A stretch of DNA of 64,000 bases from Flavivirga spongiicola (lineage in GTDB: Bacteria > Bacteroidota > Bacteroidia > Flavobacteriales > Flavobacteriaceae): positions 2,887,001 to 2,951,000 of the forward strand of contig NZ_JAUOEO010000001.1 of NCBI RefSeq assembly GCF_030540825.1, written 5' to 3'. Both the position numbers and the translations under genes were made by a program. Below the pieces are notes generated by a model, which saw only the letters and a program-made list of their open reading frames with translations, searched no databases and was not told the DNA's origin. Of the stretch, positions 17,151-46,379 are shown piece by piece; the stretch's first letter is position 1, and each line of letters starts with the position of its first letter.

Positions 17151-17158
17151 TAGATTTG
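17151..17158 (+). promoter_or_regulatory. Promoter -7 box for the arginine cluster leader
   Basis: TAGATTTG matches the Bacteroidota TAnnTTTG consensus. No good TTTG -33 is seen upstream (TTTTTTACA lies at about the right place). Transcription would begin near 17163, which is the ATG of the first leader frame, so that leader could be translated from a leaderless or nearly leaderless RNA. Confidence 0.45.
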
Positions 17159-17162
17159 CCTT

Positions 17163-17237
17163 ATGAAAAATTTAAAAAATAAAATACGTTGTTCTGTTCC
17201 CGGTTTGCCCGTGCGCATTCGCCGCCGCTGCATCTAG
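17163..17237 (+). CDS. Arg-rich leader peptide 1 (24 codons), arginine cluster attenuator candidate
   Basis: The frame runs from the ATG at 17163 to TAG at 17235-17237 and encodes 24 residues: M-K-N-L-K-N-K-I-R-C, a hydrophobic middle, and V-R-I-R-R-R-C-I at the end. Five residues are Arg, four of them packed just before the stop. The Arg codons are CGT, CGC, CGC, CGC, CGC, while six of the seven Arg codons I read in the argG gene are AGA. It lies 228 bases upstream of the first gene of an arginine biosynthesis cluster. This is the layout of ribosome-mediated attenuation leaders. Confidence 0.55.
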   Translation: MKNLKNKIRCSVPGLPVRIRRRCI

Positions 17238-17319
17238 TCTTCCAGTTAGCAAAACCAAAACGTCATTTTAATTTTTTTTCATAGTGTCCAAAATATTTCT
17301 CATAGCATTTCAAAACCCA

Positions 17320-17416
17320 GTTAACTTTTTAGTTAACAAAGATATTATGCGCCGTAATTTTCCACGTCGCCCGTAAGGGTGTGCTTCTATTTTTGAACTT
17401 AGGTGAGTCCAGTTCA
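17320..17416 (+). promoter_or_regulatory. Small hairpins in the arginine leader
   Basis: GTTAAC (17320-17325) and GTTAAC (17332-17337) form a 6-bp hairpin just before leader frame 2. CCC (17371 region) and GGG across a GTAA loop form a short hairpin over the end of leader frame 2, followed by a CTTCTATTTTT run that could act as a weak terminator. TGAACT (17394-17399) and AGTTCA (17411-17416) form a third. All stems are short; their real pairing needs folding with homologues. Confidence 0.35.
17347..17376 (+). CDS. Arg-rich leader peptide 2 (9 codons), arginine cluster attenuator candidate
   Basis: ATG at 17347 to TAA at 17374-17376 encodes M-R-R-N-F-P-R-R-P. Four of nine residues are Arg, coded CGC, CGT, CGT, CGC, again avoiding the AGA used in the genes downstream. 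It overlaps a short CCC-GTAA-GGG hairpin. The stop is 88 bases before the GNAT gene start. A nine-codon frame can occur by chance; two Arg-rich frames with rare codons in one arginine-cluster leader is what supports it. Confidence 0.5.
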   Translation: MRRNFPRRP

Positions 17417-17464: not shown

Positions 17465-18082
17465 ATGGAGATTGTAATTGCCAATAAATCACATACCAAA
17501 TACGCAGAAATTATTTGCGAAACCATTGCAGAATCAGCAAAGGTTAGAGGTACAGGTATTGCCAAACGTACACCTGAATATATTTCAGGAAAAATGAAAA
17601 ATAGTAATGCTGTTATCGCTATAGATGGCGACGTATTTGCAGGGTTTTGTTATATAGAACTGTGGGGTCATGGAAAGTTTGTAGCTAATTCAGGTTTAAT
17701 TGTACATCCTGATTATAGAGGGAAAGGGCTTGCTAAAAAAATAAAACATAAAGTATTTGAACATTCAAGAACTAAGTTTCCAGATGCTAAAGTATTTAGT
17801 ATTACAACGGGTTTAGCTGTTATGAAATTGAATAGTGATTTAGGATATAAACCAGTGACGTTTTCAGAGTTAACAGACGACCAGACATTTTGGGACGGTT
17901 GTTCAACCTGTCAGAATTATGACGTTTTAACGCGTACCAACCGTAAAATGTGTTTGTGTACAGGTATGTTATATGATGCCAAGACAAAAGAAAAAAAAGG
18001 ATCAAAAAAAATAAAAGAAAAGGTTTTTAAAAGATTGAAACATATTAAAGAAACCATGTTTTTAAAAAAGGATAAAAAATAG
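17465..18082 (+). CDS. GNAT acetyltransferase, candidate N-acylglutamate synthase
   Basis: The 205-residue protein has a GNAT fold: the acyl-CoA pyrophosphate loop is H-P-D-Y-R-G-K-G-L-A-K-K-I (about residues 78-92), with I-V-H-P before it. It is first in the arginine cluster, where the N-acylglutamate synthase is otherwise missing (no argA or argJ in the window), so it may make N-acetyl- or N-succinylglutamate from glutamate. Unusual: a Cys-rich segment C-S-T-C ... M-C-L-C (about residues 145-170) that could bind a metal, and a very basic Lys-rich tail. Enzymatic role is inference from position and fold. Confidence 0.7.
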   Translation: MEIVIANKSHTKYAEIICETIAESAKVRGTGIAKRTPEYISGKMKNSNAVIAIDGDVFAGFCYIELWGHGKFVANSGLIVHPDYRGKGLAKKIKHKVFEHSRTKFPDAKVFSITTGLAVMKLNSDLGYKPVTFSELTDDQTFWDGCSTCQNYDVLTRTNRKMCLCTGMLYDAKTKEKKGSKKIKEKVFKRLKHIKETMFLKKDKK

Positions 18083-18117: not shown

Positions 18118-19293
18118 ATGAAAAAATTAGTAATAGCCTATAGTGGTGGATTAGACACATCGTATTGTGCGGTTAGTTTATCAAAAGAGTATGATGTTCA
18201 TGCAGTAAGCGTCAATACAGGAGGGTTTACAAAAAGTGAAATTGAACATATAGAAAGTAATGCTTATAAAATGGGTGTTTCTACTTATAAAAATATTGAT
18301 GCCGTTGCTACGTTTTATCAAAAAGTAGTGAAGTATTTAATTTTTGGTAATGTTTTAAAGAATAACACCTATCCATTATCAGTAAGTGCCGAAAGAATCA
18401 TTCAAGCTATCGAAATTGTGGAATATGCAAAAAGTATTGATGCCGAATATATCGCACATGGAAGTACTGGGGCAGGAAACGACCAAGTAAGATTCGATAT
18501 GATTTTTCAAACGCTGGCTCCAGAAATTAAAATCATTACACCTATTAGAGATGAAAAATTAACCAGACAAGAAGAAATAGATTATTTAAAATCTAATGGA
18601 ATAGATATGTCTTGGGAAAAAGCACAATATTCAATCAATAAAGGACTTTGGGGGACTAGTGTTGGAGGATCTGAGACTTTAACTTCTGAAAAACCTTTGC
18701 CAAGTGAAGCCTACCCATCACAATTGGAGAAAGAAGGTGAAGAGAAAGTGACGCTGACATTTAAAAATGGGGAGTTTGTGGCATTGAATGGTAAAGAAAA
18801 TGAACCAGAAGTTAATATTGAATTGTTAAACAATATAGCATCGAATTACGCTATAGGTAGAGATATTCATGTTGGGGATACGATTGTTGGCATAAAAGGG
18901 CGTGTTGGTTTTGAAGCTGCTGCAGCTTTAATTACTGTAAAAGCACATCATTTATTAGAAAAGCACACACTTACCAAATGGCAACTACAGCATAAAGAAT
19001 ACTTATCAAGTTTTTACGGAATGCATTTACATGAAGGCCAGTATTTAGATCCTGTAATGAGAAACATTGAAGCCTTTTTACAAAGTAGCCAGGAGCAAGT
19101 AAGTGGTGATGTGATAGTAACATTAAAACCATATCATTTCTCTTTGGATGGTATTGTATCAAAGCATGATTTAATGAATGCGAAGTTTGGAAGCTATGGC
19201 GAGATTAATAAAGGGTGGACTGCAGATGAAGCTAAAGGATTCATTAAAATTATTGGAAATCAAAATAAAATATATCAACAAGTAAACTCGTAG
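18118..19293 (+). CDS. argG: Argininosuccinate synthase
   Basis: The 391-residue enzyme joins citrulline and aspartate using ATP, giving argininosuccinate. The N-terminal ATP pyrophosphatase motif A-Y-S-G-G-L-D-T-S is at residues 6-14, and the substrate-binding block H-G-S-T-G-A-G-N-D-Q-V-R-F is near 114-127. Length is normal for the family. The sequence differs from the usual proteobacterial form (e.g. S-W-E-K-A-Q-Y-S-I-N-K-G-L-W-G) in ways seen in the Bacteroidota branch. It is second in the cluster, 35 bases after the GNAT gene, with a family-A repeat between. Confidence 0.95.
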   Translation: MKKLVIAYSGGLDTSYCAVSLSKEYDVHAVSVNTGGFTKSEIEHIESNAYKMGVSTYKNIDAVATFYQKVVKYLIFGNVLKNNTYPLSVSAERIIQAIEIVEYAKSIDAEYIAHGSTGAGNDQVRFDMIFQTLAPEIKIITPIRDEKLTRQEEIDYLKSNGIDMSWEKAQYSINKGLWGTSVGGSETLTSEKPLPSEAYPSQLEKEGEEKVTLTFKNGEFVALNGKENEPEVNIELLNNIASNYAIGRDIHVGDTIVGIKGRVGFEAAAALITVKAHHLLEKHTLTKWQLQHKEYLSSFYGMHLHEGQYLDPVMRNIEAFLQSSQEQVSGDVIVTLKPYHFSLDGIVSKHDLMNAKFGSYGEINKGWTADEAKGFIKIIGNQNKIYQQVNS

Positions 19294-19335: not shown

Positions 19336-20319
19336 ATGGAAAATATAAAAGTAGGAATTATTGGAGGGGCAGGTTATACGGCTGGTGAGCTAATTAGATT
19401 GTTGATTAATCACCCAAAAACGACTATTAATTTTGTATTCAGTACATCTAATGCTGGTAATAAAATTAGTCATATCCATCAGGATTTGGTCGGTTCGTTA
19501 GATTTGAAATTTACGGATACTGTTAATCCGGATGTCGATGTGTTATTTTTATGTTTAGGTCATGGGAACTCGGTAAAGTTTTTAGAAAACAATACGTTTT
19601 CAGATAAAACAAAGATTATAGATTTAGGAAACGATTTTAGATTAGAAAAGGATAAAGTTTTTGATGGTAAAAACTTTGTGTATGGTTTACCAGAATTGGA
19701 AAAAGAAACTATTAAATCTGCTAATTATATTGCAAACCCAGGATGCTTTGCGACAGCCATTCAATTAGGATTGTTGCCATTGGCTGAAAAGAATTTATTG
19801 AATAACGATGTGCATATTAACGCAGTAACTGGAGCCACAGGAGCCGGAACTTCACTATCGGCAACGACACATTATACGTGGAGAGATAATAATTTTTCAT
19901 ATTATAAACCATTTACCCATCAGCATTTAGGAGAAATCAATCAATCAGTAAAGCAATTGCAAAATGATTTTTCTTCAGAGATTTTGTTTATGCCAAATAG
20001 AGGGAATTTTTCAAGAGGGATTTTTGCAACTATTTATACAGATTTTGAAGGTACGGTTGAAGAGGCTATCTCTATGTATAAACACTTTTATAAAAATGCC
20101 AAATTCACTTTTATTTCGGATGCAAACATCCATTTAAAACAAGTGGTTAATACGAATAAATGTATTATACATTTACATAAACATAATAATAAACTGTTGA
20201 TTACAAGTGTGATTGATAACTTGTTAAAAGGGGCTTCGGGTCAAGCCATTCAAAACATGAATTTAATGTTTGGATTAGAAGAAACTGAAGGATTGCAGTT
20301 GAAGGGGACTTATTTCTAA
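19336..20319 (+). CDS. argC: N-acetyl-gamma-glutamyl-phosphate reductase
   Basis: The 327-residue protein has the NAD(P)-binding G-G-A-G-Y-T-A-G-E-L-I at residues 10-20 and the catalytic cysteine Cys137 in N-P-G-C-F-A-T. H-L-G-E-I is the conserved distal block. It reduces N-acyl-glutamyl phosphate to the semialdehyde, the third step of the pathway. The acyl group (acetyl or succinyl) cannot be told from this enzyme alone. The gap to proC (93 bases) holds two family-A repeats facing each other. Confidence 0.95.
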   Translation: MENIKVGIIGGAGYTAGELIRLLINHPKTTINFVFSTSNAGNKISHIHQDLVGSLDLKFTDTVNPDVDVLFLCLGHGNSVKFLENNTFSDKTKIIDLGNDFRLEKDKVFDGKNFVYGLPELEKETIKSANYIANPGCFATAIQLGLLPLAEKNLLNNDVHINAVTGATGAGTSLSATTHYTWRDNNFSYYKPFTHQHLGEINQSVKQLQNDFSSEILFMPNRGNFSRGIFATIYTDFEGTVEEAISMYKHFYKNAKFTFISDANIHLKQVVNTNKCIIHLHKHNNKLLITSVIDNLLKGASGQAIQNMNLMFGLEETEGLQLKGTYF

Positions 20320-20412: not shown

Positions 20413-21207
20413 ATGAAAATAGCAATAATAGGAACAGGGAATTTAGGAAGCTCTATAGTCAAAGGACTTATAAAAAATAAGTCATTTACATCGTTGTATC
20501 TAAGTGATAAAAACACATCGGCGGTAAAAGCTTTTGAAGATGAACCTTATGTTACCATTACAAGTGACAACTCAAAAGCAGTTGAAGAATCAGATATCGT
20601 TCTTTTTGCCTTACAGCCCAGACATATTGAAGGCGTATTGAAAGATGTAGCACCAATTATAAAAGCTGATCATATTGTGCTTTCAGTAGCAGCCGGTTTC
20701 GAGATTTCCAGGATAGAGAGTATTATTGGAAACGATAAAAATATCATTCGCGTCATGCCGAATACAGCAATTTCAATAGGGAAATCCATGACCTGCCTTT
20801 CAGCGAATGATAAAGGTCAGGAAAAAATTGAATTGGCAAAAGACATATTTAATCAGTTAGGGACTACCATGGTCATTCCAGAAGAACAAATACAAGCAGC
20901 AACAGTCATCTGTGCCAGCGGGATTGCATTTTGGATGCGTTTGGTACGTGCGACAACGCAAGGCGCTATTCAATTGGGCTTTGAAGCACATGAAGCACAT
21001 GATTTGGCGGTTCAAACTTGTTTTGGTTCTGCAAGCTTGTTAATTGAATCAGGTAGGCATCCAGAGCAAGAAATTGATCGTGTAACAACGCCTAGTGGAT
21101 GTACTATTGAAGGACTGAATGCTATGGAACATCAAGGTTTGAGTTCTGCTTTAATACAAGGCATCGTATCATCGTTCGAAAAAATTAATCAAATTAAAAA
21201 GAATTAA
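20413..21207 (+). CDS. proC: Pyrroline-5-carboxylate reductase
   Basis: The 264-residue protein starts with the dinucleotide fold I-A-I-I-G-T-G-N-L-G-S-S-I and has the family blocks V-R-V-M-P-N-T-A (about 115-122) and T-T-P-S-G-C-T-I-E-G-L near the C-terminus. It reduces pyrroline-5-carboxylate to proline with NAD(P)H. The stop is one base before the argD start, so the two genes are translationally close. Its presence with proA and proB inside the arg cluster is typical of Bacteroidota. Confidence 0.95.
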   Translation: MKIAIIGTGNLGSSIVKGLIKNKSFTSLYLSDKNTSAVKAFEDEPYVTITSDNSKAVEESDIVLFALQPRHIEGVLKDVAPIIKADHIVLSVAAGFEISRIESIIGNDKNIIRVMPNTAISIGKSMTCLSANDKGQEKIELAKDIFNQLGTTMVIPEEQIQAATVICASGIAFWMRLVRATTQGAIQLGFEAHEAHDLAVQTCFGSASLLIESGRHPEQEIDRVTTPSGCTIEGLNAMEHQGLSSALIQGIVSSFEKINQIKKN

Positions 21208-21208
21208 A

Positions 21209-22354
21209 ATGCCATTATTTGACGTTTATCCATTATATAATGTCACCCCGATTTCCGGGAAAGACATACTTGTTTATGATAACGAAGGAACCGAATATTT
21301 AGACCTTTATGGAGGTCATGCTGTGATTTCTATCGGACATGCACACCCAAATTATGTTGAAGCAATCACCAACCAAGTGAATACATTAGGGTTTTATTCT
21401 AATGCGATTCAGAACCCATTACAAAAGCAATTAGCAGATAAAATTGAAGCACTGTCAGAGTGTAAAGATTACGAGTTGTTTTTATGTAACTCGGGAGCAG
21501 AAGCCAATGAAAATGCTTTAAAATTAGCCTCTTTTAAAACAGGTAAGAAACGTGTTGTGGCCTTTAATAATGGGTTTCATGGGCGTACATCAGCAGCCGT
21601 AGCAGCAACTGATAACCAAAATATTATCGCACCAATAAATGCGCAGCAAGCAGTAACCATTTTGCCTTTAAATGATATTGAAGGTGTTAAAAGAGAATTA
21701 GAAAAAGGGGATGTTTGTGCTGTTATAGTGGAGTTTATTCAGGGCGTTGGTGGTTTGGATCAAGGAACAGCAGCGTTTTTTGAACAAGTAGATACACTTT
21801 GTAAAGCTAATAACACCATGTTTATTGCTGATGAGATTCAATGTGGTTATGGACGTTCGGGGAAATTTTTCGCGTTTCAGTATTATAAAGTCACACCAGA
21901 TATTATTTCTATGGCAAAAGGTATGGGGAATGGCTTTCCAATAGGCGGGATTTTAATTCACCCAAATATCGAAGCTAAATATGGCATGTTGGGAACGACC
22001 TTTGGTGGTAATCATTTAGCATGTGCAGCAGGTTTAGCAGTTTTAAATACGATTGAAGAAGAAAACCTCATTGAAAACACGAATGCTATTTCTGAGTATT
22101 TTATTGAAAAAGCAAAAACGATTCCGCAAATAAAAAATATAAAAGGAAGAGGTTTGATGATCGGTTTAGAATTCGATTTTGAAGTTGGAGACCTAAGAAA
22201 GAAACTTATTTATGACGAACATATTTTTACAGGTGGCGCATCCAATAAAAAGTTGTTAAGAATTTTGCCTCCGTTAACTGTTAAAAAAGAACACGTAGAT
22301 CAATTTTTTGATGCTTTGATAAAAGTATTAGTTAAAATGGAAACATCGGTATAA
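21209..22354 (+). CDS. argD: Acetylornithine/succinylornithine aminotransferase
   Basis: The 381-residue class III aminotransferase carries N-S-G-A-E-A-N-E (about 94-101), I-A-D-E-I-Q-C-G-Y-G-R, and PLP lysine Lys237 in S-M-A-K-G-M-G-N-G-F-P-I-G-G. It transfers an amino group from glutamate to N-acyl-glutamate semialdehyde. Ornithine aminotransferases have the same fold, but the position between argC and argB homologues supports argD. The gap to proA contains a fragment of the GTCATT-type repeat (22371-22399). Confidence 0.93.
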   Translation: MPLFDVYPLYNVTPISGKDILVYDNEGTEYLDLYGGHAVISIGHAHPNYVEAITNQVNTLGFYSNAIQNPLQKQLADKIEALSECKDYELFLCNSGAEANENALKLASFKTGKKRVVAFNNGFHGRTSAAVAATDNQNIIAPINAQQAVTILPLNDIEGVKRELEKGDVCAVIVEFIQGVGGLDQGTAAFFEQVDTLCKANNTMFIADEIQCGYGRSGKFFAFQYYKVTPDIISMAKGMGNGFPIGGILIHPNIEAKYGMLGTTFGGNHLACAAGLAVLNTIEEENLIENTNAISEYFIEKAKTIPQIKNIKGRGLMIGLEFDFEVGDLRKKLIYDEHIFTGGASNKKLLRILPPLTVKKEHVDQFFDALIKVLVKMETSV

Positions 22355-22463
22355 AAAAGAATGAAGTTAATATGCCATTTCGACTGAAAGGAGAAATCAC
22401 ATAAGAAGCTAACATAAGAAGAGAAACTGCCACTGAACACTGTAAAACAGAACACTAGAAAAC

Positions 22464-23660
22464 ATGAATACCTTATTATCTATAGAGAAAAGAAATGCTG
22501 TGCTACTTAAAATGGCGATACTTTTAGAACAAGAAAGAAACGCTATTATTGCTATCAATAAAGCAGATTTAGAAGCTTATAATGGCGATGATATTTCGAT
22601 GTATGATAGACTAAAAGTGGATGATACTAAAGTAGATGAAATGATTGCATCTGTAACGCATTTAGCATCTCAAGAAGACCCTGTGGGCATAGAACGCTTC
22701 AGTTTTAAGCATGATAATGGGATGCAGGTCTATAATAAAACAGCGTCGTTTGGAACGGTGTTGATTATTTATGAATCCAGACCTGATGTTACGGTTGAAG
22801 CAGCAGGGATTGCTTTTAAATCGGGTAATAGGATATTACTTAAAGGGGGAAAAGAATCACTAAAATCAAACTTAAAGATTGTTGAGTTGTGGCATCAAGC
22901 TTTAAAAGATTATGATGCGTCAACTGATTGGGTAGCCTACTTGCAATTCAATAGAACAGAAACACAAGCCTTTTTAGAAAAGCCAACACAGAAAGTCGAT
23001 TTAATTGTGCCTCGGGGTGGTGAGAGATTAATTGCTTTTGTGAAGGAACATGCAACATGTCCTGTCATCATTAGTGGTCGTGGTAATAACTTTGTGTATG
23101 TACACCCAGAAGCAGATCAACAAATAGCCTTAAACCTCATTGTGAATGGAAAGACAGCTAAAATATCAGCATGTAACGCCATAGATAAAGTTATTATAGA
23201 TAAAGATTTACCTAATAAAAGAGATTTTATAGAAAACCTCATTTCTAAATTAAAAGCATTTAATGTTGAGGTTTTAGGAGATGAAAACCTTTGTGAATTC
23301 GATGAGGTAAAAGCAATACCATCAGATCAGACATGGTTTGAAGAGTTTTTAGATTATAAGATAGCCATTGGAGAGGTTGCTTCAAATGAAGATGCTATTG
23401 CCATGATAAATAAATACTCTGGTGGACATTCATCAGTCATTGTAACCACCAATGAAGCAGAAGCGAAATTGTTTATGGAGAATGTAGATACTGCAGCGGT
23501 ATATCATAATGCATCCTCACGTTTTACGGATGGCGGACAACTTGGGTTAGGAGGTGAGTTGGCCATTAGCACAGATAAATTACACCAAAGAGGGCCCATA
23601 GGTTTGCAACATTTGGTAACTAATAAATGGTACGTTCATGGAAATGGACAAACAAGATAA
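22464..23660 (+). CDS. proA: Glutamate-5-semialdehyde dehydrogenase (gamma-glutamyl phosphate reductase)
   Basis: The 398-residue protein matches ProA: I-Y-E-S-R-P-D-V-T-V-E-A (about 102-113), L-I-V-P-R-G-G, and the catalytic Cys237 in I-S-A-C-N-A. The late block G-G-Q-L-G-L-G-G-E-L-A-I-S-T is diagnostic. It reduces gamma-glutamyl phosphate to the semialdehyde in proline synthesis. The proB start follows two bases after its stop, the reverse of the usual proB-proA order in enterobacteria but common in this phylum. Confidence 0.95.
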   Translation: MNTLLSIEKRNAVLLKMAILLEQERNAIIAINKADLEAYNGDDISMYDRLKVDDTKVDEMIASVTHLASQEDPVGIERFSFKHDNGMQVYNKTASFGTVLIIYESRPDVTVEAAGIAFKSGNRILLKGGKESLKSNLKIVELWHQALKDYDASTDWVAYLQFNRTETQAFLEKPTQKVDLIVPRGGERLIAFVKEHATCPVIISGRGNNFVYVHPEADQQIALNLIVNGKTAKISACNAIDKVIIDKDLPNKRDFIENLISKLKAFNVEVLGDENLCEFDEVKAIPSDQTWFEEFLDYKIAIGEVASNEDAIAMINKYSGGHSSVIVTTNEAEAKLFMENVDTAAVYHNASSRFTDGGQLGLGGELAISTDKLHQRGPIGLQHLVTNKWYVHGNGQTR

Positions 23661-23662
23661 CC

Positions 23663-24424
23663 ATGAAGAAAAAAAGAATATTACTTAAAGTTGGCTCTAA
23701 TACACTTACCAAAGAAACCAATAACATTTCTAGAGGTAAGATTGAAGATATCGCAAATCAAATGGCACAATTACAGGATACTTGTGAGTTTATTATTGTG
23801 AGTTCTGGGGCTATTGCAGTGGCAAAGCAGTTTGTGAAGTTAGAAAGTAAGCAAAAGGATGTTTTTGTAAAACAAGCTTTAGCGTCTATTGGTCAGCCAC
23901 ATCTTATAAGAATTTATCAAGAGATCTTCAGAGAATATGGGTTGCTAACATCCCAATGTTTATTGTCCTATTCAGACTTTGAAAAACAAGAAAGTAAAAC
24001 CAATATTGTAAATACCATCAATGTACTGGTTAACAATAATTATATTCCAATTATTAATGAAAATGATACCGTGGCTACCGATGAAATTAAATTTGGAGAT
24101 AATGATAAATTAGGAGCACTTACAGCGTCACTTTTAAATGCTGATTTATTTATAATAGCCACCAATACGAATGGCATTTATACTAAAGAATCTATTGAGA
24201 ATGGTATCCCCAAAACTATTGAATTAGTTGAAGATTTTAACGAATTAAAAAACCAAGTAGTAAATTTTAAATCAACTCATGGTACAGGTGGGATGCAATC
24301 TAAAATAGACGCCATTACAGTAGCAAAACAATCGAACGTAGAAACATGGATTGTGAACGGATTGGAAGATAATTTCATCTTAAATGCTATGGATAATAAA
24401 GTATCGCTTACTAAAATAAAATAA
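23663..24424 (+). CDS. proB: Glutamate 5-kinase, short form without PUA domain
   Basis: I choose the ATG at 23663 (M-K-K-K-R-I-L-L-K-V-G-S) because an earlier Met at 23627 lies inside proA and adds residues with no counterpart in the family. The 253-residue protein has K-V-G-S-N-T-L at the start, V-S-S-G-A-I-A-V, I-I-N-E-N-D-T-V-A-T-D-E-I-K-F-G-D-N-D-K-L and the late G-T-G-G-M-Q-S-K-I block. The C-terminal PUA RNA-binding domain of E. coli ProB (about 100 residues) is absent. It phosphorylates glutamate for proline synthesis. Confidence 0.95.
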   Translation: MKKKRILLKVGSNTLTKETNNISRGKIEDIANQMAQLQDTCEFIIVSSGAIAVAKQFVKLESKQKDVFVKQALASIGQPHLIRIYQEIFREYGLLTSQCLLSYSDFEKQESKTNIVNTINVLVNNNYIPIINENDTVATDEIKFGDNDKLGALTASLLNADLFIIATNTNGIYTKESIENGIPKTIELVEDFNELKNQVVNFKSTHGTGGMQSKIDAITVAKQSNVETWIVNGLEDNFILNAMDNKVSLTKIK

Positions 24425-24483: not shown

Positions 24484-25425
24484 ATGAAAAACTACACCTC
24501 CATACACGATATAGATAACTTGCAATCATGGATTGAGGAAGCTAAAGCCTTAAAACAAGATCCTTTAATGCATATGAGCCTGGGAAAAGATAAAACCATT
24601 GGGTTATTATTCTTTAACTCTAGTTTACGTACCCGTTTAAGTACACAAAAAGCAGCGTTAAATTTAGGGATGAACCCCATCGTTATGAATGTGTCTGGAG
24701 ATGCCTGGGGTATAGAATTTGGAGATGGTACTGTTATGGACGGTCATACCGCAGAACATATAAAAGAAGCGGCAGCTGTCGTGTCGCAGTATTGTGATAT
24801 TATTGCAGTAAGAGCATTTCCTACATTGACGGATAAGGCAAAAGATGAAAGCGAGCAGGTTTTAAAATCGTTTGTTAAATATGCGTCTGTTCCTATTGTA
24901 AATATGGAGAGTGCCACCGGACACCCATTACAAGGATTAACGGATGCACTAACGATTTCAGAACATGCAAAAGTTGCAAAACCAAAAGTCGTGTTAAGTT
25001 GGGCACCACACGTAAAAACCTTACCACATGCCGTGGCAAATAGTTTTGTCCAAGCCATGCAAAAAATGGATGTCGAGTTTGTAATTACGCACCCTGAAGG
25101 CTACGATTTAAATCCTGAAATTACGGGAGATACGCCAATAATTTACAGTCAGGAAGAAGCTTTTGCGAATGCTGATTTTGTATATACTAAAAACTGGAGC
25201 TCTTATTCAAATTATGGAAAAATTTTAAGTAAAGACCCTAATTGGATGATTACCAAAGAAAAGTTAGGTGATGCTAAATTTATGCACTGCTTGCCGGTAA
25301 GACGAAATGTAGTCGTAGAAGATGCTGTTTTAGATAGTGAGAGCTCGTTGGTTATTCAGCAAGCTAATAATAGAACCTACGCAGCACAATTGGTATTGAA
25401 AAAAATATTAGAAAGTAATAAATAA
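24484..25425 (+). CDS. N-acyl-L-ornithine carbamoyltransferase (succinyl or acetyl)
   Basis: The 313-residue protein is the special Bacteroidota/Xanthomonas carbamoyltransferase that acts on N-acylated ornithine, not free ornithine. Carbamoyl-phosphate motif S-S-L-R-T-R is at residues 46-51; H-P-L-Q-G-L-T-D and M-H-C-L-P-V-R-R-N are conserved. The segment V-M-D-G-H-T-A-E-H places Ala at residue 90, the position that is Pro in the Bacteroides fragilis succinylornithine enzyme and Glu in the Xanthomonas acetylornithine enzyme. A small residue there favours the succinyl substrate, but this is inference. It is followed by argB, argE and argH, as expected for a pathway deacylating after carbamoylation. 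Confidence 0.93.
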   Translation: MKNYTSIHDIDNLQSWIEEAKALKQDPLMHMSLGKDKTIGLLFFNSSLRTRLSTQKAALNLGMNPIVMNVSGDAWGIEFGDGTVMDGHTAEHIKEAAAVVSQYCDIIAVRAFPTLTDKAKDESEQVLKSFVKYASVPIVNMESATGHPLQGLTDALTISEHAKVAKPKVVLSWAPHVKTLPHAVANSFVQAMQKMDVEFVITHPEGYDLNPEITGDTPIIYSQEEAFANADFVYTKNWSSYSNYGKILSKDPNWMITKEKLGDAKFMHCLPVRRNVVVEDAVLDSESSLVIQQANNRTYAAQLVLKKILESNK

Positions 25426-25496
25426 AAAATGAACGTCATTACAAAAGAGGAACGATTTAAGCAATCTTTTCACACTTAAACTAATACAAAATATTC

Positions 25497-25529
25497 AGAC
25501 CTGTCAGGTTTTTAAAACCTGACAGGTCT
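25497..25529. repeat. 33-nt perfect palindrome, family B (second copy)
   Basis: AGACCTGTCAGG / CCTGACAGGTCT arms around TTTTTAAAA, 12 bases before the argB start. It differs from the copy at 24432-24464 by paired changes only. Just upstream (25437-25472) is a fragment of the GTCATT...GAGGAACGA repeat type. Confidence 0.7.
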
Positions 25530-25541
25530 ATAGATATACGC

Positions 25542-26318
25542 ATGGAAAAACTATCGATAGTAAAAATAGGAGGAAACATTATTGAGGACGCTTCAGCATT
25601 ACAGGCGTTTTTAAAACTGTTTTCAAATCTGGAAGGAAAGAAAATTTTGGTACATGGCGGTGGCAAACGCGCTACATCCATGGCATCTAAATTAGGAATT
25701 GAATCTAAAATGATAAACGGCAGACGCATTACCGATGCCGAAACTTTAGAAGTGATCACCATGGTTTATGGTGGACTGGTTAACAAGAATATTGTTGCCA
25801 AATTGCAAGCGTTAAATACCAACGCGATTGGTTTAACAGGTGCCGATATTAATAGTATTGCATCAGATAAAAGACCTGTGAAAGATGTCGATTTTGGTTT
25901 TGTTGGTGATGTTAAACAAGTAGCTCACGAATCTATAGATAAATTAATCCAAGCTAATTTTACGCCTGTTTTTTGTGCCATTACACATGATGGCAATGGG
26001 CAATTATTAAACACGAATGCAGATACTATTGCATCCCAGGTAGCAGTAGGGATGAGCCATTTATATGAAACATCTATTTACTATTGTTTTGAATTGAATG
26101 GTGTTTTAGAAGATATAAATGATAAGAATTCGGTAGTAAAACATATCGACTCAAAGACTTATAAAACGTTATTAGAAAAAGGCATCATAGCCGACGGTAT
26201 GCTGCCAAAGCTAGAAAATTGTTTCGATGCATTAAATAATGGAGTCAACACAATTAATATGGGAAATACATCCATGTTAACCCAGGAAAATGATAATTTT
26301 ACAACCATAACCTTATAA
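25542..26318 (+). CDS. argB: N-acylglutamate kinase
   Basis: The 258-residue amino acid kinase has V-K-I-G-G-N-I-I (about 7-14), V-H-G-G-G-K-R-A, the glutamate site N-G-R-R-I-T-D-A-E-T-L-E and I-N-T-N-A-D-T-type L-L-N-T-N-A-D-T-I-A. It phosphorylates N-acetyl- or N-succinylglutamate. It lacks the N-terminal helix found in arginine-inhibited hexameric kinases, so direct feedback inhibition by arginine is less likely, which fits with transcriptional control by a leader. argE starts one base after its stop. Confidence 0.94.
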   Translation: MEKLSIVKIGGNIIEDASALQAFLKLFSNLEGKKILVHGGGKRATSMASKLGIESKMINGRRITDAETLEVITMVYGGLVNKNIVAKLQALNTNAIGLTGADINSIASDKRPVKDVDFGFVGDVKQVAHESIDKLIQANFTPVFCAITHDGNGQLLNTNADTIASQVAVGMSHLYETSIYYCFELNGVLEDINDKNSVVKHIDSKTYKTLLEKGIIADGMLPKLENCFDALNNGVNTINMGNTSMLTQENDNFTTITL

Positions 26319-26319
26319 C

Positions 26320-27387
26320 ATGACGCAACAGAAATTAACAAACGATGCCATATTACTTTTAAAAAAGTTGATAGAGACCCAGTCATTTTCTTCAGAAGAA
26401 GACCAAACGGCATTACATATAGAAGATTGGTTTAAACGTTATGAAGTTGATTATAAAAGAACACAAAATAACGTTTGGGCTATTAATAAGTATTTTGATG
26501 AAAGTAAGCCAACGCTTTTGCTAAACTCCCATCACGATACCGTAAAACCCAATAGCGCCTATACCAAAGATCCATTTAAGGCCATTGTTGAAGATGGTAA
26601 GTTATATGGTTTGGGAAGTAATGATGCGGGTGGATGCCTAGTATCATTAATAGCTACATTTACTCATTTTTATACTCAGAAGGATTTAAAATATAATCTC
26701 GTAATTGTTGCTTCCGCAGAAGAAGAAAGCAGTGGGCCAAACGGATTAAATAGTATGTTGGCAGTTATTCCAAAAGTAGATGTAGCCATCGTAGGTGAAC
26801 CTACCCTTATGAATTTAGCAGTAGCCGAAAAAGGCTTAGTTGTTTTCGATGCTGTAGTTTCAGGAACACCAAGTCATGCAGCACACCCTAACGATGATAA
26901 TGTACTATATAATGCCATTGAGGTATTACAATGGTTTAAAGATTTTAAGTTTGAAAAAGGCTCTGAAGCATTAGGAGATGTAAAATTAACAGTCACACAA
27001 ATTAATGCCGGAAAGCAGCATAATGCCGTTCCGGCGCACCTAGATTTAGTTATTGATGTGCGTGTAAATGATGCTTATAGCAATTCAGAAATTGCAGACA
27101 TATTACAAGAACAGTCGCCATGTACAAGCATGACACCTCGTAGTTTGCGTTTAAACTCGTCAAGTATTCCTGTAGATCACGATTTAGTTAAAGCAGGCAT
27201 TGCCATTGGCAGAACGACCTATGGCTCGCCAACTTTATCAGATCAGGCAGTATTATCATGTCCGTCTTTAAAATTAGGGCCAGGAGATAGCACACGTTCG
27301 CATTCGGCAGATGAATTTATTTATGTGAATGAAATAGAAGAAGGGATACAGATTTATATTGAATTGTTGAATCGTGTCATTGTTTAA
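26320..27387 (+). CDS. argE: N-acylcitrulline/N-acylornithine deacylase (M20 family)
   Basis: The 355-residue M20 metallopeptidase has the first metal motif S-H-H-D-T-V (His71-Asp73), the bridging Asp in L-G-S-N-D-A-G-G, the catalytic E-E-E-S-S-G-P and V-G-E-P-T. The dimerisation 'lid' follows at about 170-270. In this cluster carbamoylation precedes deacylation, so the likely substrate is N-acylcitrulline rather than N-acylornithine. The last nine codons (E-L-L-N-R-V-I-V) are duplicated 236 bases downstream at 27595-27623. Confidence 0.9.
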   Translation: MTQQKLTNDAILLLKKLIETQSFSSEEDQTALHIEDWFKRYEVDYKRTQNNVWAINKYFDESKPTLLLNSHHDTVKPNSAYTKDPFKAIVEDGKLYGLGSNDAGGCLVSLIATFTHFYTQKDLKYNLVIVASAEEESSGPNGLNSMLAVIPKVDVAIVGEPTLMNLAVAEKGLVVFDAVVSGTPSHAAHPNDDNVLYNAIEVLQWFKDFKFEKGSEALGDVKLTVTQINAGKQHNAVPAHLDLVIDVRVNDAYSNSEIADILQEQSPCTSMTPRSLRLNSSSIPVDHDLVKAGIAIGRTTYGSPTLSDQAVLSCPSLKLGPGDSTRSHSADEFIYVNEIEEGIQIYIELLNRVIV

Positions 27388-46225: not shown

Positions 46226-46255
46226 CATACACAAAGTTCAATCACTTATTGAAAT

Positions 46256-46373
46256 GTTATCGAGAAAGGCGGAGGGATTAGACCCTATGAAGCCTTAGCA
46301 ACCCTTTATACGTAAAGAAGGTGCTAAATTCTACCCCATCCAGAAATTATTTCAGGATTCACGGATAGATAAC
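46256..46373 (+). ncRNA. SAM-I (S-box) riboswitch
   Basis: The S-box core is readable: P1 arms GTTATC (46256-46261) and GATAAC (46368-46373), GAGAAAGGCGGAGGGA, the kink-turn/core GAAGCCTTAGCAACC, and AAGGTGCTAAATTC followed by the P4 region. This RNA binds S-adenosylmethionine and lowers expression of methionine genes when it is abundant. It precedes metY by about 180 bases, the right context. Confidence 0.93.
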
Positions 46374-46379
46374 CAAACG

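Follow-up and report, generated by a model that had tools for sequence, protein, structure and literature searches.

A putative arginine-sensing attenuator with two successive leader frames upstream of the arginine biosynthesis operon of Flavivirga spongiicola

Introduction

In transcription attenuation of the trp, his and leu type, which is mediated by the ribosome, a short leader frame containing codons for the product amino acid controls a biosynthesis operon. Ribosomes can also pause in an arginine-dependent manner through the nascent peptide, the precedents being the fungal arginine attenuator peptide and enterobacterial SpeFL. The closest described systems otherwise comprise the Salmonella speF leader with its frame orf34, in which Rho and RNase G take part (PMC6386406), the ermB leader (PMC8274638), and the leaders mapped in Flavobacterium psychrophilum, an organism of the same family as the one considered below (PMC9723704). 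Searches of the open-licence literature gave papers on attenuation for other amino acids, but none on an arginine leader in Bacteroidota.

The locus described here lies in a 64,000-nucleotide stretch of the genome of Flavivirga spongiicola (genome G000), referred to as the window; all of its features discussed below are on the + strand. An earlier note, made from the letters of this DNA, had proposed that two Arg-rich mini-frames ahead of the arginine cluster mediate attenuation by the ribosome. The Arg clusters, the arginine operon downstream and the covarying hairpins described below all fit that proposal.

The leader and the genes that it precedes

As an attenuation leader should, the leader in the window precedes arginine biosynthesis genes (argG, argC, argD, argB and others), which were named by their NCBIfam best matches, with the curated cut-off applied per family. 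The first gene of the operon (17465–18082) encodes a GNAT-type acyltransferase, which is presumed to catalyze the first arginine step on the basis of its position and a weak N-acetyltransferase match below the cut-off; among named genomes, its nearest counterparts are those of Flavivirga species. It is followed by argG, for argininosuccinate synthase (18118–19293; best matches to this enzyme, below the curated cut-offs), argC (19336–20319; above the cut-off), proC, argD, proA and proB (20413–24424; argD below its cut-off, the other three above), and an N-acetylornithine carbamoyltransferase family gene, argB and an argE/dapE-type gene (24484–27387; the last below its cut-off, the others above).

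A search with PF01316 (Arg_repressor, ArgR) gave no match in any of 119 genomes, comprising G000 and relatives. The same profile was found in 9 of 14 control genomes, one of them a Bacteroides, which indicates that the search works, and the leader is therefore the best candidate for arginine control in these organisms. No Rfam family, the T-box included, matched the leader at its gathering threshold, and five matches at E up to 5 were far below their cut-offs. The sole gathering match in the window was a SAM riboswitch at 46254–46375 (RF00162, 72.9 bits).

Distribution among relatives

The 3′ part of the leader contains two hairpins. P2 (CGCCC-GUAA-GGGUG, 17368–17381) has its 5′ arm within an Arg-Pro codon pair and the stop codon UAA in its loop, and P3 (GAACU-U-A-GG-UGAGU-CC-AGUUC, 17395–17415) carries the near-invariant loop AGGUGNGUCC; the U-rich linker between them (17382–17394) contains, together with the next base, the −7-like sequence TATTTTTG (17388–17395). 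DNA around the leader gave matches in 16 of 21 genomes searched, its own included, some of these matches being short and AT-rich. A covariance model of P2 and P3, termed R1 and built from 26 loci, gave one meaningful match in G000 (78 bits; three others at E 2–7) and matched 93 of 149 sampled genomes of the family at E up to 0.1, the match in G069 being due to chance. There is one real match per genome, and ten second matches in relatives were also attributed to chance. P3 was considered as a general leader element and rejected, as by eye neither the three other G000 matches nor the ten second matches are arginine leaders. In a sample of the phylum, R1 matched 16 of 395 genomes, every match falling within the same family, and at E up to 0.01 it was present in 75 of 80 named loci found via the acyltransferase, several of which are, judging by length, on contigs of the first set.

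P2/P3 itself served to collect a total of 111 loci, so that the presence of these hairpins is given by construction; the frames and the upstream stems were not used in the collection. In 109 of the 111 loci, the arginine acyltransferase is the next gene on the same strand, and its projected start lies 32 to 231 nt (median 41) past the R1 match; of the two exceptions, the leader is followed by argG in G141, and by another gene and then argG in G010. In two congeners, G010 (L199) and G004 (L198), no acyltransferase was found and its place before argG is taken by another gene; the leader is kept, as a double leader in G010 and as a single leader with a UACGU P3 loop in G004. For the covariation and codon-position counts, 11 near-duplicates were first taken out of the 111, leaving 100 loci, about half of which have both leaders and half only the second; this 50:50 division is approximate, since loci were typed by searching for ORF1 together with a −7 box, four that seemed wrongly typed as double were reassigned to single once they had been read, and nine that stayed undecided were counted as single by rule. 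Upstream of the single leader, three loci (L041 of G079, L103 of G172 and L198 of G004) share a conserved stretch around TTAACGAAAGGGGCT..GCCGACGATTTAGAGTTA.

The leader is absent upstream of the operon in some relatives: in genus g155, argC is present with no such leader upstream in the three genomes read (G368, G184 and G259), and G490, from another genus, showed no R1 match at the operon. By eye, G368 (L194) has a short frame, MNKISLHITSLSRTNSPITSPEVRTLSL, between a −7-like box and the acyltransferase; two of its codons are CGG (Arg), and it is possibly a different leader. Outside the family, Arg-rich leaders precede the acyltransferase in f2 (G013, G087 and G098) and f3 (G014) and, less clearly, in f9 and f15, in each case without a convincing R1 match, a result that for f9 and f15 does not extend to a loose threshold; the loci in question (L170, L175 and L182 in f2; L171 in f3; L173, L178 and L180 in f9; L174, L176 and L179 in f15) have different hairpins. 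The existence of Arg leaders outside the family suggests an older origin of the sensor. Among three f5 genomes read, two (G016 and G099) had no such frame within 420 nt, and the third (G088) had only an unrelated-looking frame at −415 to −343.

The two leader frames

The first frame, ORF1 (17163–17237), encodes the leader peptide MKNLKNKIRCSVPGLPVRIRRRCI, exactly the 24-codon Arg-rich frame of the earlier note, with CGY Arg codons at positions 9, 18 and 20–22. In the 50 non-redundant double-leader loci, ORF1 contains 255 Arg codons, 210 of them CGY, and an Arg is present among codons 7–11 in only 38.

The −7 promoter box of Bacteroidota has the consensus TAnnTTTG, and a box of this type, TAGATTTG (17151–17158), ends 4 nt upstream of ORF1. 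In most double leaders, ORF1 starts 3–6 nt past the −7 box, and TAnnTTTG-like boxes lie 4–7 nt ahead of the first frame in most. A box with at least 5 of the 6 consensus bases precedes ORF1 in 49 of the 50 double-leader loci, compared with 4/50 and 6/50 in their control stretches (4 to 7 of 50 overall), and a 5/6 box precedes the single leader in 28 of 41, a further nine of the 50 single loci having no candidate; these counts are partly by construction in both classes, since a match of at least 4/6 was itself a criterion of the ORF1 search. The consensus used agrees with the −7 box, TAnnTTTG, of F. psychrophilum (PMC9723704). The position of TAGATTTG predicts a leaderless or nearly leaderless ORF1, which would be unusual, since leaderless mRNAs make up only 5.5% of those mapped in F. 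psychrophilum; Shine-Dalgarno sequences are absent in these organisms (PMC9723704). The earlier note would have given up its reading if transcription started downstream of 17376, and the evidence points the other way: the conserved, covarying leader and the TAnnTTTG box 4 nt before ORF1 indicate an upstream start.

The second mini-frame of the earlier note, nine codons reading MRRNFPRRP (17347–17376), is present as described, and it is probably the end of a longer frame, ORF2, of 30 codons, starting at GTG 17284 (17284–17376; VSKIFLIAFQNPVNFLVNKDIMRRNFPRRP). The extension brings no further Arg. In 47 of the 50 double-leader loci, the frame can be followed without interruption from an ATG, GTG or TTG to the stop; this start codon is found between −112 and −70 relative to P2, usually at −84, −87 or −90. 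Relatives such as G054, G042 and G205 are without the inner start, and gaps in the ORF2 region are mostly multiples of three (alignment A2, 19 loci).

ORF2 ends in Arg-Pro-stop in 91 of the 111 loci, and its frame reads P2 as CGC-CCN in 105. The last 14 codons of this frame hold 445 Arg codons across the 111 loci selected by P2/P3, 404 of them CGY, compared with 143 and 41 Arg codons in the other two frames, the ORF2 frame having been picked as the Arg-richest of the three. Among the 80 of the 100 loci that were picked for an Arg-Pro-stop ending, the other 20 being dropped, codon −3 is Arg in 75, with CGT, CGC and CGA all used; codon −4 is Arg in 38, and codons −4 to −10 in 13 to 38. The Arg run is therefore kept while its positions drift and third bases vary, a pattern expected from selection on codon identity; P2, whose arm includes codon −2, accounts for the strict CGC there. 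The frames, on whose conservation the proposal of attenuation depended, are kept in close and in more distant relatives, and the recurrence of both frames in congeners and other genera is more than chance.

The contrast drawn by the earlier note between the nine CGY Arg codons of the frames and the AGA of the downstream genes is real by window counts: the 40 ORFs with a length of 150 aa or more contain 544 Arg codons, of which 153 are CGY and 284 AGA, CGC being uncommon (31) and CGT not rare (122). Its further statement that rare codons are a hallmark of attenuation fares less well, since Arg codons of either kind, rare or frequent, have the same effect in Salmonella orf34 (PMC6386406).

RNA stems and covariation

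Covariation was assessed by comparing each locus's own segment pair with segment pairs taken from different loci (5000 permutations). The covarying hairpins that the earlier note proposed to look for are present in relatives, namely T1:T2, P1, P2 and P3. T1 (about 17163–17192), the 5′ arm of a long A/U stem in module 1, contains the ORF1 start codon and Arg codon 9, and T2 (about 17258–17282), its terminator-like 3′ arm with a U-tract at 17265–17279, lies beyond the ORF1 stop. In double-leader loci, T1:T2 reaches −10.29 compared with −7.94 kcal/mol (z −7.6, 0/5000), whereas single-leader loci reach only z −1.2 at these coordinates. A U-tract of at least 8 T in 10 nt occurs in module 1 of 42 of 50 double-leader loci (shuffle mean 16.3) and at the same coordinates in 12 of 50 single leaders (shuffle mean 6.6); module 2 is poorer in this respect, with 15/50 in double (mean 4.9) and 5/50 in single leaders (mean 1.7).

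P1 (GTTAACT-TTTT-AGTTAAC, 17320–17337), upstream of the ORF2 Arg codons, covaries in double leaders (z −10.9, 0/5000). In single leaders, the start of the frame pairs instead with a stretch just ahead of the Arg run, a stem termed P1b (z −5.4, 0/5000), the windows of which give z −2.5 in double leaders. The P3 stem gave z −14.3 (n = 92), and its loop is AGGTGAGTCC in 65, AGGTGTGTCC in 19 and AGGTGCGTCC in 4 of 92 loci, 8 of the 100 having been dropped for want of a recognisable loop. In a model-fitted alignment of P2–P3 from 94 loci, 93.2% of cells pair compared with 88.7 in shuffles, and 8 of the 12 base pairs vary on both sides (score 0.217 compared with 0.138, 0/500 shuffles). The inner G-C pair of the P3 loop is replaced by A-U in three loci, and by eye the exceptional P3 hairpins of G065, G051, G004 and family f2 present a U-N-N-G-U-like pentaloop on another stem.

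Other pairings were weaker. H1 (z −2.8 and −1.3) and, in single leaders, P1 (z −1.8) were weak when the windows did not overlap, better values for both having come from overlapping windows, and a hairpin at the ORF1 stop, S1, was set aside with z −1.8 in overlapping windows. Five tests of alternative, antiterminator-like pairings showed no covariation (z 0.5 to 1.9), and no mutually exclusive pairing was found among them; a long-range pairing of the ORF2 start with the P2–P3 linker, suggested by eye in G012 (z 1.3 and 0.5), and a pairing of the Arg region with the linker (z 1.8 and 1.3) were both rejected. No strong intrinsic terminator follows P2 or P3, a generic scan giving one weak site, at P2; the candidates for intrinsic termination in the leader are this site and, in double leaders, the T1:T2 stem with its U-tract. 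The leader of the window itself folds with only a modest advantage over shuffles (z −1.1 and −1.7), and whole-region folding upstream of P2 averaged only z −0.8 over the 111 loci. The P3 loop was also rejected as a Shine-Dalgarno sequence, its end lying 49–104 nt from the start codon in 19 of 20 loci and 247 nt in the other. In addition, P3 lies beyond the region in which termination is presumed, at a variable distance from the first gene, which speaks against its occluding the start of that gene.

Proposed mechanism

The leader is most likely a ribosome-mediated attenuator that senses arginine tRNA, with two successive modules in the window and one or two across loci. The frames, Arg codons, stems and link with the arg operon come from comparison among relatives, from which we infer translation, stalling, termination and the direction of control. 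Transcription would start at or just ahead of ORF1, given the conserved −7 box, and a ribosome would load onto ORF1 with hardly any delay after the RNA emerges. With ample charged tRNA-Arg, the ribosome would reach the ORF1 stop and depart, T1 would pair with T2, and transcription would end at the U-tract. When charged tRNA-Arg is scarce, the ribosome would stall first at Arg codon 9, inside T1, such that T1:T2 could not form; an early stall at this codon would thus block T1:T2 directly, as in textbook attenuation. Alternatively, it might stall later, in the ORF1 Arg run, inside the loop. T1 would be free again during such a late stall, and the logic of ORF1 hence depends on codon 9.

ORF2 may represent a second round of the same test, with Arg codons that extend into the P2 5′ arm and a stop codon in the P2 loop. 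A ribosome stalled in ORF2 would keep P2 open, together with P1 or, in single-leader species, P1b, and a finished ribosome would let these stems form. The late Arg runs of both frames lie beside or within hairpins (the weakly supported H1 and S1 in module 1; P1 or P1b and P2 in module 2), which a stalled ribosome would keep from closing. Candidates for the effect of P2–P3 on expression are a weak intrinsic terminator, Rho and decay. A bolder version, offered tentatively, is that P2, with the stop codon in its loop, and P3, with its U-N-N-G-U-like pentaloop, form a new RNA element that relays the signal to RNA polymerase, Rho or the ribosome without a terminator/antiterminator switch, and that much of Flavobacteriales would in this way control arginine without ArgR by a codon-counting leader, doubled in about half of the loci.

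Alternative explanations

A Rho-dependent variant, which is compatible with the attenuator, is conceivable although doubtful: a released ribosome would expose the C-rich Arg stretch to Rho, a stalled one would mask it, and the hairpins would tune the timing. C exceeds G before P2 (0.375 compared with 0.222 in single and 0.283 compared with 0.206 in double leaders, −30 to +2), CGY is used in place of AGA, module 2 is without a strong terminator, and Rho acts on Salmonella orf34 (PMC6386406). However, in the remaining leader codons C at the third base shows only a slight increase (0.191 compared with 0.115 in nine arg-operon genes), and the U-tract of module 1 suits intrinsic termination.

It is improbable that the leader is a nascent-peptide sensor, in which arginine or a related compound, rather than a shortage of tRNA in the Arg run, pauses the ribosome at the Arg-Pro-stop of ORF2. 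The prevalence of this ending (91/111) would suit such a sensor, and a Pro preceding the stop slows release; however, the peptide ahead of the Arg run is poorly conserved between genera, the Arg positions drift, and G079, G172, G026, G157 and others keep the hairpin without Arg-Pro-stop, so that the Pro-stop ending seems to arise as a by-product of the P2 arm.

Even less probable is a bypass of the leader frames by a main promoter in the P2–P3 linker, at TATTTTTG. Boxes of the −7 type with 5/6 matches are enriched there relative to mononucleotide shuffles (29/50 compared with 13.0 in one set of loci, 20/50 compared with 10.9 in the other), whereas exact −7 boxes are not (2/50 in each set), and the stems P3, P2, P1 and T1:T2 show RNA covariation, for which transcription has to come from upstream. 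A promoter downstream of 17376 is rejected as the only start because the upstream stems covary. An additional internal promoter in the linker is possible, and TATTTTTG may instead be a pause signal or a by-product of the U-rich linker.

Least likely of all is a riboswitch in which P2–P3 binds arginine or another ligand directly and the frames are secondary, a reading to which the near-invariant P3 loop would lend itself, but the Arg codons are conserved as codons, and by eye the loop differs in outlying leaders that keep them (G051, G004 and family f2).

Comparison with known systems

The arginine-tRNA-sensing attenuator offers a concrete answer to how arginine is controlled where the PF01316 search found no ArgR: very probably, tiny Arg-rich frames and their hairpins let the cell sense arginine shortage through ribosome stalling and switch the cluster on. 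Two serial sensors, a near-leaderless first frame and no Shine-Dalgarno sequences would make the leader well suited to clean tests of how transcription and translation are coupled in Bacteroidota, and P2–P3 is a candidate new RNA family.

Within Flavobacteriaceae, the closest parallels are the leaders of F. psychrophilum, where leader-peptide attenuation was inferred before amino-acid operons and the −7 box is likewise TAnnTTTG; the conserved 5′ elements named in its text are those of pheA, hisG and others rather than an arginine leader, although its supplement may list one (PMC9723704). The ermB leader similarly has two successive leader peptides ahead of one gene, but there the attenuation is translational and antibiotic-induced, with no amino-acid operon (PMC8274638). 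In the Salmonella speF leader, as described in its report rather than by comparison of sequence or structure, the Arg codons of orf34 also sense arginine, with hairpins at and after the stop codon; orf34 differs in controlling ornithine decarboxylase and in having two consecutive Arg codons early in one frame, and the SpeFL (DUF2618) core HIRRT.HIM is not visible by eye in the leader peptides described here (PMC6386406). Compared with trp, his and leu attenuation, the present leader is distinguished by its amino acid, arginine, by a pair of sensors in series at roughly half of the loci, by a near-leaderless start, by having no recognisable antiterminator and no strong module 2 terminator, and by the extra conserved hairpin P3; it shares with these systems the short frame, the cluster of product codons, the hairpins overlapping the control codons and, in module 1, a U-tract following the stem.
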